Of a DNA stretch of 64,000 nt, positions 2,060-8,494 are shown piece after piece. Position 1 is the stretch's first letter, and each line of letters begins with the position of its first letter. The notes under the pieces were generated by a model. The model worked only from the letters and a program-made list of their open reading frames with translations, did no database searches and was not told the origin of the DNA. A program made the translations under genes and the position numbers. The DNA comes from Cryomorphaceae bacterium (GTDB lineage Bacteria; Bacteroidota; Bacteroidia; Flavobacteriales; Schleiferiaceae), in assembly GCA_017858515.1 (NCBI GenBank), contig JAFMBM010000010.1, positions 1 to 64,000 of the forward strand, written 5' to 3'.

Positions 2060-2180
2060 TGTCCTTAAAGTACAATAGGTAAGTCCCGCGAACTTGATAA
2101 CGGTGATTTCCTCATCATCGGGCAGTTCCTATACTTACTTGAACTGCTTGGGCTGCTAGGCATTTTTATGGATGGAACTT
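2060..2180 (-). pseudogene. Decayed remnant related to the ORF at 7405..7641
   Basis: The minus strand encodes ..ELPDDEEITVIKF.. with stops, resembling QLPAEERNTVIKV in ORF 7405..7641. Confidence 0.45.
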
Positions 2181-3141
2181 GCCATTTCCATTTACTGAAG
2201 ATGCCGAAAGAGATCAAAGAAAGCTCTGGCACCCAGAACAAAGACTCACAAGCGTTCAGAATAGCAGAGGAATACATCATTATCTTTACGATAGCAAGGG
2301 CGAGCGAATCATGAAAGGCAGTGTATTGAGCAATCAAGTTGCGGTAAACGGAGTAAGCGGCAATTACACCAATGGAGCGGTAGAATTTGACGGATATCTG
2401 CTCTATGTGAATCCGTATTTCGTGGCGCGTCATTTTAAAGATTGGGTAGAAGGCAGCAAGCACTATTATATGGGTGCGCAGCGCATCGCCAGCGAGACCA
2501 TGGGCTATGTAAATGAACAGGGTATTACGGAGCTTCCACACCAACCCGAACCCATGAAAGCCAGCAGCAGCACCGCCCCCTATCCCGTAAGCGGAGTGTT
2601 GGGAGCAAGCTCTGCCTGGCAGAGTTTAGAATACCTCTTGCAAGAATTAGGAGCGAATCTGGGCGCAAACTTTTGGTCGGATGTAACGGATACTGTACCC
2701 GCCTACAAGCAGTTCTTTGATTTCACCACCTATTTGGAGCAAACCGAAGAAGTGTGCACAGAGCAAGGACATCTAGGTGAAATTCTACAGATACCCGATT
2801 GCCTCTGTGCCAGCAGTCCGTATTATGCCATGGAGATTCATGAAATCGATTGCAAAGAATTCCGACAGATCTATTGGTACCATCCCGATTATTTGGGTCA
2901 CAACGAATACATCACCAACAAATCCGGCCGCCCCTACCAGTACTTCCACCACAGTGCCTTCGGCGAAGTACTCGTACAACGTGACGCCAACTACGGCAGC
3001 TTCCAAACGAGCTATACTTTTAATGCCAAGGAGTTTGATGGAGAGACAGGTTTTGGGTATTATGGAGCGCGGTATTACCATCCCACTTTTAGTGTTTGGT
3101 TGGGGGTGGATGAAGGTCTGAACTGTGATGCGTATGATTAA
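2179..3141 (+). CDS. RHS repeat-associated core protein fragment, truncated just after WLGVD
   Basis: RLTSVQNSRGIHHYLYDSKGERIMK, YWYHPDYLGHNEYIT, FGEVLVQRDANYGSFQTSYTFNAKEFDGETGFGYYGARYYHPTFSVWLGVD; short non-core tail EGLNCDAYD. Confidence 0.8.
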   Translation: MPFPFTEDAERDQRKLWHPEQRLTSVQNSRGIHHYLYDSKGERIMKGSVLSNQVAVNGVSGNYTNGAVEFDGYLLYVNPYFVARHFKDWVEGSKHYYMGAQRIASETMGYVNEQGITELPHQPEPMKASSSTAPYPVSGVLGASSAWQSLEYLLQELGANLGANFWSDVTDTVPAYKQFFDFTTYLEQTEEVCTEQGHLGEILQIPDCLCASSPYYAMEIHEIDCKEFRQIYWYHPDYLGHNEYITNKSGRPYQYFHHSAFGEVLVQRDANYGSFQTSYTFNAKEFDGETGFGYYGARYYHPTFSVWLGVDEGLNCDAYD

Positions 3142-3151
3142 ATGATAGGCT

Positions 3152-3454
3152 ATGATTAAGAAGGGGTATAAATTTTCAGAGTTAACATTAAAAATAATAG
3201 GGTGCGCTATGACGGTGCATTCAGCTTTAGGCAATGGTTTCCAAGAAGTCATTTATCAGCGCGCATTGGAAATAGAAATGAAAGACCGAAACCTAGGTTT
3301 TAGTCGGGAGTATGAAATGACCCATCCTAAAAAAAGGGGCTACTTTTATTCATGTAATTTATGTTCGCAAAACCAAATTACACAAAAGCGGGATGACCTT
3401 TATGGAAATCCCGCTTTTAAAGTTTTATCGGACAGTAGTAACTTTAAATATTAA
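3152..3454 (+). pseudogene. GxxExxY-family protein, N-terminal fragment (copy 1)
   Basis: FSELTLKIIGCAMTVHSALGNGFQEVIYQRALEIEM; similarity ends near EYEM and the ORF then runs through a terminator-like hairpin. Confidence 0.6.
3384..3418 (+). terminator. Rho-independent terminator-like hairpin (copy 1)
   Basis: AAAAGCGGGAT / ATCCCGCTTTT, 11-bp perfect stem with 13-nt loop. Confidence 0.6.
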
Positions 3455-3554
3455 AATAAAAATAGTAATGCTGAATTTTGGAAAGTCTTTTTTAGAATAA
3501 TTTGTTGTGCGTCAGCTTAAAAAACCGACACCAATCAAAATCACGGAAGACAAT

Positions 3555-3572
3555 GTTTCTAAATTTAGAAAC
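3555..3572. promoter_or_regulatory. 18-bp perfect palindrome, candidate HigA operator (copy 1)
   Basis: GTTTCTAAATTTAGAAAC, 38 bp upstream of the higB-like ATG; a TATCTTTG (TAnnTTTG-type) element follows at 3579..3586. Confidence 0.65.
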
Positions 3573-3610
3573 CTTCATTATCTTTGTGACGTTAAACAAG
3601 ACAACTTTGA

Positions 3611-3952
3611 ATGAGATATTTTGAGACGAGATTTTTAGAAGAAGCAGACCAGTTCATTTCAGGACTTGACCGAAAGACCGTCAAAAAAATCTTTTACAAT
3701 ATTGACCTAGCTGAACAAACTAATGACCCAAAAATTTTTAAGAAACTACAAAATGACATTTGGGAGTTTCGAACAAAATACTCAGGACTTCAAATTAGAC
3801 TACTTGCATTTTGGGACAAGACCGATAACAAAGAAACTTTGGTTCTTGCGACACACGGTTTTATAAAGAAAGTTGACAAAGTTCCGGCTAAGGAAATTGA
3901 CCGTGCATTAAGGCTAAGAGACAACTATTTCAACAACAAACTAAAAAAGTAA
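3611..3952 (+). CDS. higB: RelE/HigB-type (phage Gp49-like) toxin of a type II TA system (copy 1)
   Basis: LEEADQFISGLDRKTVKKIFYNIDLAE...LQNDIWEFRTKYSGLQIRLLAFWDK...THGFIKK; toxin-first order with an XRE partner. Confidence 0.85.
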   Translation: MRYFETRFLEEADQFISGLDRKTVKKIFYNIDLAEQTNDPKIFKKLQNDIWEFRTKYSGLQIRLLAFWDKTDNKETLVLATHGFIKKVDKVPAKEIDRALRLRDNYFNNKLKK

Positions 3953-3956
3953 TCTA

Positions 3957-4283
3957 ATGGCAACTAAAGAATTAAAGACTTACTCGCTTGCCGAAATGAA
4001 AGACAAGTATATCGGTAAAGTCGGGACACAAGAGCGTGACGAATACGAATATGAACTTAGTATGGACGTTTTAGGAAAGATGATTAAAACTGCTCGACAA
4101 GAAAGAAACTTGACACAAGAAGAACTCGGACGACTTGTTGGAGTTCAGAAAGCTCAAATCTCTAAACTTGAAAGTAGTGCCAACAGTGCTACCATTGACA
4201 CTATATTAAAAGTGTTCAAGGCATTAAAAGCAGAAATCAATTTTAACGTAAAACTTGAAGACAATTTTGTTAAACTCGCTTGA
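3957..4283 (+). CDS. higA: XRE-family HTH antitoxin (copy 1)
   Basis: LGKMIKTARQERNLTQEELGRLVGVQKAQISKLESSANSATIDTILKVFKALKAEI; 4 bp after the toxin gene. Confidence 0.85.
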   Translation: MATKELKTYSLAEMKDKYIGKVGTQERDEYEYELSMDVLGKMIKTARQERNLTQEELGRLVGVQKAQISKLESSANSATIDTILKVFKALKAEINFNVKLEDNFVKLA

Positions 4284-4432
4284 CAGAAAAGAAAGCCGAA
4301 CGCACAACAACACCTACCCAAAAGTGACGATTCAGTAGTCAAATCAAGCTTTGTGCTTCTATCAAAATTTGTGATTAGTTGACAGTGAAGTGCTTCGAAA
4401 CCGCCACCTTCGGGTAGCTGCAAAACGTTACC

Positions 4433-4735
4433 ATGAGGAATCTTCTTAGAGAGCTAAGCTTCCAAGATTTAGTTTTAAAACATTACAAGGTATATCCCGA
4501 TTATAACCCAAACAAATCCGGCCGCCCCTACCAGTACTTCCACCACAGTGCCTTCGGCGAAGTACTCGTACAACGTGACGCCAACTACGGCAGCTTCCAA
4601 ACGAGCTATACTTTTAATGCCAAGGAGTTTGATGGAGAGACAGGTTTTGGGTATTATGGAGCGCGGTATTACCATCCCACTTTTAGTGTTTGGTTGGGGG
4701 TGGATGAAGGTCTGAACTGTGATGCGTATGATTAA
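4433..4735 (+). CDS. RHS core fragment (duplicate 3' end, fused to a short new N-terminus)
   Basis: MRNLLRELSFQDLVLKHYKVYPDYNPN followed by NKSGRPYQYF...WLGVDEGLNCDAYD identical to the end of ORF 2179..3141. Confidence 0.7.
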   Translation: MRNLLRELSFQDLVLKHYKVYPDYNPNKSGRPYQYFHHSAFGEVLVQRDANYGSFQTSYTFNAKEFDGETGFGYYGARYYHPTFSVWLGVDEGLNCDAYD

Positions 4736-4745
4736 ATGATAGGCT

Positions 4746-5048
4746 ATGATTAAGAAGGGGTATAAATTTTCAGAGTTAACATTAAAAATAATAGGGTGCG
4801 CTATGACGGTGCATTCAGCTTTAGGCAATGGTTTCCAAGAAGTCATTTATCAGCGCGCATTGGAAATAGAAATGAAAGACCGAAACCTAGGTTTTAGTCG
4901 GGAGTATGAAATGACCCATCCTAAAAAAAGGGGCTACTTTTATTCATGTAATTTATGTTCGCAAAACCAAATTACACAAAAGCGGGATGACCTTTATGGA
5001 AATCCCGCTTTTAAAGTTTTATCGGACAGTAGTAACTTTAAATATTAA
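4746..5048 (+). pseudogene. GxxExxY-family N-terminal fragment (copy 2)
   Basis: Protein identical to 3152..3454. Confidence 0.6.
4978..5012 (+). terminator. Terminator-like hairpin (copy 2)
   Basis: Same sequence as 3384..3418. Confidence 0.6.
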
Positions 5049-5148
5049 AATAAAAATAGTAATGCTGAATTTTGGAAAGTCTTTTTTAGAATAATTTGTT
5101 GTGCGTCAGCTTAAAAAACCGACACCAATCAAAATCACGGAAGACAAT

Positions 5149-5166
5149 GTTTCTAAATTTAGAAAC
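5149..5166. promoter_or_regulatory. 18-bp perfect palindrome, candidate HigA operator (copy 2)
   Basis: GTTTCTAAATTTAGAAAC. Confidence 0.65.
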
Positions 5167-5204
5167 CTTCATTATCTTTGTGACGTTAAACAAGACAACT
5201 TTGA

Positions 5205-5546
5205 ATGAGATATTTTGAGACGAGATTTTTAGAAGAAGCAGACCAGTTCATTTCAGGACTTGACCGAAAGACCGTCAAAAAAATCTTTTACAATATTGAC
5301 CTAGCTGAACAAACTAATGACCCAAAAATTTTTAAGAAACTACAAAATGACATTTGGGAGTTTCGAACAAAATACTCAGGACTTCAAATTAGACTACTTG
5401 CATTTTGGGACAAGACCGATAACAAAGAAACTTTGGTTCTTGCGACACACGGTTTTATAAAGAAAGTTGACAAAGTTCCGGCTAAGGAAATTGACCGTGC
5501 ATTAAGGCTAAGAGACAACTATTTCAACAACAAACTAAAAAAGTAA
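5205..5546 (+). CDS. higB: RelE/HigB-type toxin (copy 2)
   Basis: Protein identical to 3611..3952. Confidence 0.85.
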   Translation: MRYFETRFLEEADQFISGLDRKTVKKIFYNIDLAEQTNDPKIFKKLQNDIWEFRTKYSGLQIRLLAFWDKTDNKETLVLATHGFIKKVDKVPAKEIDRALRLRDNYFNNKLKK

Positions 5547-5550
5547 TCTA

Positions 5551-5877
5551 ATGGCAACTAAAGAATTAAAGACTTACTCGCTTGCCGAAATGAAAGACAA
5601 GTATATCGGTAAAGTCGGGACACAAGAGCGTGACGAATACGAATATGAACTTAGTATGGACGTTTTAGGAAAGATGATTAAAACTGCTCGACAAGAAAGA
5701 AACTTGACACAAGAAGAACTCGGACGACTTGTTGGAGTTCAGAAAGCTCAAATCTCTAAACTTGAAAGTAGTGCCAACAGTGCTACCATTGACACTATAT
5801 TAAAAGTGTTCAAGGCATTAAAAGCAGAAATCAATTTTAACGTAAAACTTGAAGACAATTTTGTTAAACTCGCTTGA
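5551..5877 (+). CDS. higA: XRE-family HTH antitoxin (copy 2)
   Basis: Protein identical to 3957..4283. Confidence 0.85.
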   Translation: MATKELKTYSLAEMKDKYIGKVGTQERDEYEYELSMDVLGKMIKTARQERNLTQEELGRLVGVQKAQISKLESSANSATIDTILKVFKALKAEINFNVKLEDNFVKLA

Positions 5878-6026
5878 CAGAAAAGAAAGCCGAACGCACA
5901 ACAACACCTACCCAAAAGTGACGATTCAGTAGTCAAATCAAGCTTTGTGCTTCTATCAAAATTTGTGATTAGTTGACAGTGAAGTGCTTCGAAACCGCCA
6001 CCTTCGGGTAGCTGCAAAACGTTACC

Positions 6027-6971
6027 ATGAGGAATCTTCTTAGAGAGCTAAGCTTCCAAGATTTAGTTTTAAAACATTACAAGGTATATCCCGATTATAA
6101 CCCAAACAAATTCTGCCGCCCTTACCAGTACTTTCATTACAGCGCATTCGGCGAAGTGCTTGTACAACGCGATGCTAATTACGGCAGTTTCCAGACAAGC
6201 TATACGTTTAATGCCAAGGAGTTTGACCAAGAGACTGGGCTTGGCTATTACGGAGCGCGGTATTACAATCCCACTTTCAGTGTTTGGTTGGGGGTGGATC
6301 CGTTGGCGCATAGGTATCGGAGTATGTCACCTTATGTATACACTGGGAATAACCCGATTATGTTGGTGGATCCGGATGGGATGTGGGTTAAAGGAGGCGA
6401 TAATTGGTTCGGCCGTTTTTTTCAAAAAGTAGGTAACGTTTTTACTGGAAACGGCTGGAATACAAATAAAGAATTAGAGGAGGCTGAATGGGTAAGAAAA
6501 TATGAAGCAGAGGGGAATACTATATTGGATGAGATAGTCATTAATATTGCAAAAAAAGAAAATAAACAACCCTATAGCAAGGAAGGCTATGGTGATAGTA
6601 ATGAACAGCATATTAAGTGGCCAGATGCTGAAAACAAAGGGGACCCCATAGAGCGCTTCCCTATGGGCGGTCTGGGTAAAGCTGTTGGTAGCTGGGGCCA
6701 AAAATTGTCCAAAGGCTTGGGGATTTTGAGGAAGTGGATTTCTTGGGGAGCAAAGGAGTCTCCGCCTAAATCTGATGATATCGTAGTTGCTGATATGGCT
6801 CCTGTACCTAAAGGTCCGAGTAAAGTGATTTTTGAAGTGTATTATCCAAAATTAACAGGTGATAAAAAGGACTGGGTATTTGAACATGACTACCAGGATT
6901 CTGCAAGGTGGCATGATTTTCTAAAAAGTGACACAATATTTAGAAAGATTAAAAATGTTGAGGTTAAGTAG
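6027..6971 (+). CDS. RHS core plus intact C-terminal tip (candidate polymorphic toxin)
   Basis: ETGLGYYGARYYNPTFSVWLGVDPLAHRYRSMSPYVYTGNNPIMLVDPDG core end, then ~190 aa of unrecognised C-terminus. Confidence 0.8.
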   Translation: MRNLLRELSFQDLVLKHYKVYPDYNPNKFCRPYQYFHYSAFGEVLVQRDANYGSFQTSYTFNAKEFDQETGLGYYGARYYNPTFSVWLGVDPLAHRYRSMSPYVYTGNNPIMLVDPDGMWVKGGDNWFGRFFQKVGNVFTGNGWNTNKELEEAEWVRKYEAEGNTILDEIVINIAKKENKQPYSKEGYGDSNEQHIKWPDAENKGDPIERFPMGGLGKAVGSWGQKLSKGLGILRKWISWGAKESPPKSDDIVVADMAPVPKGPSKVIFEVYYPKLTGDKKDWVFEHDYQDSARWHDFLKSDTIFRKIKNVEVK

Positions 6972-7383
6972 TTTATTATTACTATTGATTGCTAGTTGCA
7001 ATAGTGAACCAAAAAGAAATTCAGATAAATCTTTATCTGAGAATATGGGATTTAAAGAGGTGGTTGTTAATCCAAAAGCAACTAACCGTTTGATATTCAA
7101 TGTTGATAGAATCAAACCTTTTAATTATTGTCAAATATCAACAAACAGCGGGTTATATATTCTTGATCACAATAAATCTGATAGCTTATTGGTAATCAGT
7201 GATTCATTGGTTACTCAAATGGATTCTGTAAGTAGTTTTTTTGGGCCATTTGTTAGTGGATATAGGTTTAATATGATACTGGGAGATAAGTTAAACAGTG
7301 ATCCTTCAGATATTAGTATGTCTGGTCATATTGCATATAAAATCATTATAAGAGGTAGTTTTGGTCATATTCACTCGCAGTAA
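6955..7383 (+). CDS. Small lipoprotein, candidate immunity protein for the RHS tip
   Basis: MLRLSSLLLLLIASCNSEP signal peptide and lipobox; ATG at 6955 overlaps the RHS stop by 17 bp. Confidence 0.6.
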   Translation: MLRLSSLLLLLIASCNSEPKRNSDKSLSENMGFKEVVVNPKATNRLIFNVDRIKPFNYCQISTNSGLYILDHNKSDSLLVISDSLVTQMDSVSSFFGPFVSGYRFNMILGDKLNSDPSDISMSGHIAYKIIIRGSFGHIHSQ

Positions 7384-7660: not shown

Positions 7661-7912
7661 ATGAAAGTGATCAATTATACAGAGTTAAGGCTCAACCTGA
7701 GAAAATGGCTTGACCTTGTCGCAGACGATTTTGAGGAACTTATTATCAAACGCAAGAACAACAAAGACCTTGTTTTAATCTCCATGGATGAGTATCGCTC
7801 CTTGAAAGAGACTCAATATCTGATGTCAGGTAAGAACCGTGAACACTTACTGCTATCAATGGAAGAAGCCAAACAAGGCAAGACCAAAGACGAGGGCCTG
7901 ATTGAAGAATGA
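7661..7912 (+). CDS. yefM: YefM/Phd-family antitoxin
   Basis: INYTELRLNLRKWLDLVADDFEELIIKRKNNKDLVLISMDEYRSLKET; ATGA overlap with the next gene. Confidence 0.88.
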   Translation: MKVINYTELRLNLRKWLDLVADDFEELIIKRKNNKDLVLISMDEYRSLKETQYLMSGKNREHLLLSMEEAKQGKTKDEGLIEE

Positions 7913-8169
7913 GGATTACTTGGACAGCTTCTAGCTGGGAAGATTATCTATATTGGCAAAAGACAGACAGGAAGAAGGTCAAGCGAATCAAAGAGCTGAT
8001 AAAAAGCTGCCAATGCACTCCTATTGAAGGCATAGGCAACCCAGAGCCGTTAAGGCATGAACTCCAGGGGTTTTGGTCAAGGCGGATAGACACCGAACAC
8101 CGTTTGGTGTACAGCTATGAGAATGACGAGCTATTGATTATCTCATGCCGCTACCATTATGGGTATTAG
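7909..8169 (+). CDS. yoeB: YoeB/Txe-family mRNA endoribonuclease toxin
   Basis: WEDYLYWQKTDRKKVKRIKELIKSC..GIGNPEPLRHELQGFWSRRIDTEHRLVYSYENDELLIISCRYHY. Confidence 0.93.
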   Translation: MRITWTASSWEDYLYWQKTDRKKVKRIKELIKSCQCTPIEGIGNPEPLRHELQGFWSRRIDTEHRLVYSYENDELLIISCRYHYGY

Positions 8170-8214: not shown

Positions 8215-8290
8215 GCTTCCAACAACAGCGCCTTCGGCGAAGTGCTCGTAAAACGCGCGCCAACTACGGCAGCTTCCAGACGAGCTAGGT
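8215..8290 (+). pseudogene. Short decayed RHS core remnant
   Basis: gcgccttcggcgaagtgctcgtaaaacgcgcgccaactacggcagcttccagacgagct matches the SAFGEVLVQRDANYGSFQTS coding segment but is shifted and truncated. Confidence 0.7.
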
Positions 8291-8494
8291 TTTAGAAGAT
8301 TTTGAAATCTGAAACCAACCGAGGGGAGTGAAGGAACAGCAAAGGTTAGCCTAGATACAATAAAAACGAACAATGAAAAGTTTATTCTAATAGTAAAATA
8401 AGACACCTTAGTTAGTGTAGGCTCTATGGCACTTTACTCATTAAATCAGATCGACTCGTACTCAGAGGCTGCTAGACTTTCTGCTTTTCTAAAC

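Follow-up and report, generated by a model that had tools for sequence, protein, structure and literature searches.

The locus raises the question of whether a short open reading frame (ORF) carrying the end of an RHS core, and the lipoprotein gene that overlaps it, encode a toxin and its immunity protein and, if so, which part of the tip would be toxic and where it would act. It lies near the start of a 64,000-nucleotide stretch of a Cryomorphaceae genome, which was analysed as a whole and is referred to here as the window. The original prediction was that of an intact RHS tip followed, with a 17-bp overlap, by a lipoprotein, the two forming a new toxin-immunity pair. The overlap is exactly as described (positions 6955-6971), and the match of the tip to the RHS core profile, the lipobox of its neighbor and the coding frames of both genes agree with that description. 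The features of the locus are listed in Table 1.

Table 1. Features of the orphan RHS tip, its neighboring lipoprotein gene and the adjoining duplication (window coordinates).
Feature	Position	Strand	Basis or remark
Orphan RHS tip ORF	6027..6971	+	314 aa; stop codon 6969-6971
End of the RHS-associated core domain, with VDPDG (6366-6380)	6138..6383	+	TIGR03696
Putative pre-toxin linker, ~CT residues 1-97, common to same-genus tip G004:C5	6381..6671	+	sequence comparison
Candidate toxin region, ~100 aa, unique	6672..6968	+	boundary inferred from G004:C5 comparison
Amphipathic stretch around VGSWGQKLSKGLGILRKWIS	6684..6743	+	hydrophobic moment up to 0.58 per residue
Predicted strand-strand-helix tail KVIFEVYY...DWVFEHDY...ARWHDFLKSD	6822..6929	+	AF2, pLDDT only ~44
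Lipoprotein, 142 aa, LIASC lipobox, candidate immunity protein	6955..7383	+	ATG 6955; no family match
Second copy of tandem duplication, period 1594 bp	4520..6094	+	100% identical to 2926-4500

In a profile search, TIGR03696 matched residues 38-119 of the ORF with an E-value of 7.9e-20, a score above the curated cut-off (the E-value was 3.3e-20 in the whole-genome search). The match spans profile positions 1-76 and is complete to the last of them, with the variable C-terminus next; the DPxG end of an RHS core directly ahead of such a C-terminus is what identifies an RHS polymorphic toxin tip. The VDPDG motif occupies ORF residues 114-118 and leaves 196 residues to the C-terminal end. An ORF of 314 codons with a significant RHS profile match is not a product of chance. 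Additionally, the predicted frame is the best of six by in-frame codon statistics in the linker, the C-terminal part and the lipoprotein alike; in the first two of these the statistics are typical of the genome, and the C-terminus has the GC content of the window (40%). The description of the tip as intact holds for its open reading frame but not for the gene as a whole, because the ORF retains just the final part of the RHS core: the N-terminus lies only ~118 residues ahead of the C-terminus, there is no signal peptide, and the delivery or shell region of a full-length RHS effector is absent from the ORF. A full-length relative from the family (3,419 aa) combines a Sec-type N-terminus with SpvB and TcdB_mid domains and RHS repeats. 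The first ~22 codons of the tip come from the tandem duplication, and its own sequence begins only at ~6094.

Among 60 relatives, the 196-aa C-terminus has a sole match, the same-genus tip G004:C5, with 35% identity across CT residues 9-101 (E 1.9e-11); a blastp comparison of the two gave 37% over 87 aa (E 5e-17). A scan of the contig collection with the C-terminus found no relative, a scan with the linker alignment found the G004 contig only, and a search of the plasmid collection gave none. When 398 genomes of the order were searched for the last 67 residues, no homologue emerged apart from three weak matches (E 0.02-0.04). On these comparisons, the ~97 shared residues are best read as a linker ahead of the toxin, and the candidate toxin is confined to the ~100 unique residues. 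The two tips thus share a conserved part and diverge behind it. The original prediction had taken the whole ~190-aa C-terminus to be the toxin, an assignment that has to be given up for the first ~97 residues, shared with G004:C5 at 35-37% identity. A motif resembling a TonB box ([LIF][DNE][DE][IV]x[IVM]) is found at window positions 6525-6542 and also in tips L051, L081, L083, L012, L010 and L067; examples are LDEIVI, LDEVVV and LNEIIV. Of 57 tips, 7 carry it behind the core, against a mean of 0.75 and a maximum of 6 in 500 shuffling runs.

The expectation that the C-terminus belongs to no recognised toxin family was borne out by searches of Pfam, NCBIfam, PADLOC, PHROGs and PDB, none of which returned a match, and it contains neither an HExxH motif nor a cysteine. 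Together with the strongly amphipathic segment, these absences lean against a common enzyme. Single-sequence AF2 modelling of the tip reached a pLDDT of 33.9, with a weak hint of a strand-strand-helix arrangement at residues 266-301 (strands 266-272 and 281-288, helix 292-301, pLDDT only ~44) and a helix of very low confidence at 216-239 that overlies the amphipathic stretch. We tentatively consider that the tip may act non-enzymatically on membranes; this is somewhat likelier than an enzymatic action, which appears rather unlikely.

The neighboring gene starts at an ATG with an in-frame GTG upstream at 6928, and its GC content is 30%, compared with 40% for the window. The product has no match in Pfam, NCBIfam, PADLOC, PHROGs or PDB, and its single-sequence AF2 model has a pLDDT of 35.0. 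By inspection, the N-terminus MLRLSSLLLLLIASC followed by NSE provides a plausible signal peptidase II site. The residues from the cysteine onward, CNSEPK, contain neither of the known Bacteroidota surface-export motifs (C-X-K-[DE]2 or SDD-type), as defined for Bacteroidota lipoproteins (PMC5080379). A signal peptidase II lipobox without an export signal (LIASC followed by NSEPK, again by inspection) is the hallmark of a periplasm-facing lipoprotein. The missing motif therefore fits a periplasm-facing anchor and hence a toxin that would act in the envelope, which is the site that had been predicted from the lipidated partner.

Lipoproteins in this position are not peculiar to the window. Core matches (E up to 1e-4) were present in 36 of 88 family genomes, many of them as arrays of 260-370-aa tips. 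Among tips recognised in the family loci compared (including L051-L090), a lipobox protein directly follows at least 24 of 69 sampled tips and at most 12 of 105 control ORFs (medium criterion, Fisher p 4e-4), a comparison that is conservative in that at least 8 of the 12 lipobox-positive controls lie in RHS loci and resemble tips missed by the pattern; with the strict criterion the counts are 10 of 69 and 6 of 105 (p 0.06). This enrichment makes a lipidated partner behind an RHS tip ordinary in this bacterial family. An HExxH motif was present in 8 of 57 tip C-termini, four of which are followed by a lipobox protein. The predicted new toxin-immunity pair thus stands as a candidate pair with no library match, but its lipoprotein partner is of a usual kind. 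In a 2012 census of polymorphic toxins, Imm65 was the only immunity family made up of lipoproteins (PMC3482391), whereas lipid-anchored immunity is seemingly common behind the RHS tips of this family, which suggests that many RHS toxins of these bacteria may act in the envelope.

We compared the pair with other tips and lipoproteins of the genome and its relatives. Within the same genome, L012 (G000:C80) has the same layout (tip 1463-2191, lipoprotein 2178-2639), and at the end of G000:C46 another tip (L014) is followed by a lipoprotein at 2251-2637. Of the RHS tips at these two loci, two have overlapping lipoproteins and one has a secreted partner; their location is either the end of a contig or a contig of 4 kb. 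The G004:C5 gene runs out of frame past the shared linker, its short tail lies in another frame, and its lipoprotein starts at the end of the tail; the frameshifted gene was compared as two separate pieces. The shared linker, the divergence and the lipoprotein behind it have, as far as sequence can tell, the pattern of a polymorphic toxin. In L082 (G020:C82, 2740-3000), too, the short tail ahead of the lipoprotein is out of frame with the preceding tip sequence, as it is at 1456-1510 in L010 (G004:C5); a pseudogene, a sequencing error and frameshifting are indistinguishable as the cause in L082 and L010.

The L012 tip and the G067 tip are homologous (38% over 55 aa), each with a lipoprotein behind it, and the lipoproteins of G067 and G004 are homologous to one another (blastp 8e-5). 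A profile search widened this lipoprotein family to two tandem copies in G020, a broken copy in G068 and one in G007, all of them behind RHS tips, as in G004 and G067, except the G007 copy. A GldM-like domain in the G067 and G004 lipoproteins was not confirmed, as neither Pfam (at E up to 5) nor PDB gave a GldM match. Shuffling tests linked the short tail of G067 to that of G020 (0 of 1000 shuffles) and the L012 tail to the G004 tail (3 of 1000), but the window tail showed no detectable kinship to any of these four (shuffle p 0.36-0.80). A strand-strand-helix profile of five tails that included it looked convincing on its training set but, for the window tail, failed in leave-one-out and shuffling controls, in which 558 of 1000 shuffles scored equally well. 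The window lipoprotein marginally resembles one of five tip-associated lipoproteins (0.013, uncorrected for multiple comparisons) and is not convincingly their kin by sequence. A common family that includes the window pair and the other pairs is possible on these data. We think it doubtful that the tips of these pairs form a new class in this bacterial family, very small (~50-100 aa) and non-enzymatic, in which an amphipathic segment is joined to a strand-strand-helix tail and fast-diverging periplasmic lipoproteins act as neutralisers, with the window pair as a highly diverged member beside those of G004, G067, G020 and L012.

The first 8.3 kb of the window consist of RHS debris. Copies of the core tail lie at about 302-498, 2904-3119, 4498-4713, 6092-6307 and 8222-8313; the core at 2143-3141 ends early, and the last copy is a scrap. 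At 362-1952, an RHS tip (362-1302) and its lipoprotein (1305-1952) are each split across frames and form a broken pair. The 1594-bp unit contains an RHS core tail, a truncated PDDEXK_3 protein and a HigB/HigA-type pair, and its tandem duplication is either a recent event or an assembly artefact. Because the duplication is bounded by core repeats, it suggests that recombination through the core occurs at this locus too. Just downstream of the pair, at 7661-8169, is a YefM/YoeB-type toxin-antitoxin pair (Pfam E 7e-18 and 9e-38). The contig start falls inside RHS sequence, and on contigs C80, C48 and C46 RHS tips stand at the start, at the end or over the whole length. No full-length rhs gene is present in the assembled contigs of this draft genome; given the RHS matches at contig ends, the assembly was probably broken by RHS repeats, and such a gene may have gone unseen. 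Taken together, a short core remnant, a C-terminus and an adjoining immunity-like gene near other rhs sequence make up the layout of an orphan rhs-CT/immunity module.

We conclude that the locus is probably a stored orphan RHS-CT/immunity cassette whose envelope-acting toxin would become active once recombined into a full-length rhs gene. The end of the core would be kept as a recombination handle, followed by the linker of ~97 residues, the variable toxin region of ~100 residues and the cognate lipoprotein immunity gene. As it now stands, with neither signal peptide nor shell, the tip would be kept in reserve and not delivered. An exchange through the conserved core with a full-length rhs gene, which in relatives encodes a Sec-signal SpvB/TcdB-type shell protein of ~3,400 aa, would place it on a delivered protein. 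The candidate toxin would then most likely act in the periplasm or at a membrane of the target cell, and the periplasm-facing lipoprotein would block it. The core, linker homology, divergence, adjacency, lipobox and coding character are observed here; toxicity, neutralisation, the site and mode of action and activation by recombination are what we infer.

The surrounding debris also speaks for a decayed remnant, in which the RHS end has been truncated or is drifting and carries no active toxin, and whose lipoprotein is either an orphan immunity protein that only protects or a relict too. The split pair, the truncated core and the core scrap nearby, the frameshift in the G004 relative and an ORF start region that derives from the duplication rather than from a native rhs start all point that way, and because neighboring tips are frameshifted or truncated, the window tip may likewise be decaying. 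The frame, open over 319 codons, the genome-typical coding statistics of linker and C-terminal part and the preserved overlap with the lipoprotein gene speak against decay, which we regard as unlikely on balance.

A reading without any toxin, in which the strand-strand-helix tail serves to dock the RHS protein onto its partner lipoprotein for surface display, would account for the short tails just before the lipoprotein in several family tips (G067, G020, G004 and L012) and for the kinship among some of these tails and between the G004 and G067 lipoproteins. However, the strong divergence of tails and lipoproteins does not resemble that of a conserved anchor, no relationship of the window tail to the others was detected, and the window lipoprotein has no surface-export motif, so we consider docking very unlikely. 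It is even harder to see the tip as a cytoplasmic toxin with an unrelated lipoprotein beside it. Lipoprotein genes are frequent in Bacteroidota, so one could lie there by coincidence, but the 17-bp overlap, and the fact that lipoproteins directly follow RHS tips more often than they follow other ORFs, make this highly improbable.

The sequences of the pair are new, but arrangements of this type are familiar; a functional pair would add one further, small toxin-immunity type. Tox-JAB-1/Imm65 (PMC3482391) likewise combines a polymorphic toxin with a lipobox immunity protein, here a candidate; the window tip differs in having no JAB domain match and its lipoprotein in having no Pfam or NCBIfam match, these models being the only basis of the comparison. 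The same-genus tip G004:C5 (L010) has a linker 35-37% identical, a similar stretch after it (6 of 27 residues identical, ungapped) and a lipoprotein directly behind; it differs in its frameshift and in a tail and lipoprotein not detectably related to those of the window. From the orphan rhs-CT/rhsI modules of Enterobacteriaceae (PMC3967940, PMC3150448) the window pair is set apart by its phylum, its lipoprotein partner, a C-terminus unrelated to described toxins and a draft assembly with no full-length rhs, which may be hidden. In layout it resembles them: a displaced RHS core fragment is joined to a C-terminus and an immunity gene, the delivery region is missing and the core is retained as homology for recombination. 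Orphan rhs fragments as a rule have neither a start nor export signals of their own, and it is recombination with the main rhs gene, as in Salmonella, that activates them (PMC3967940).
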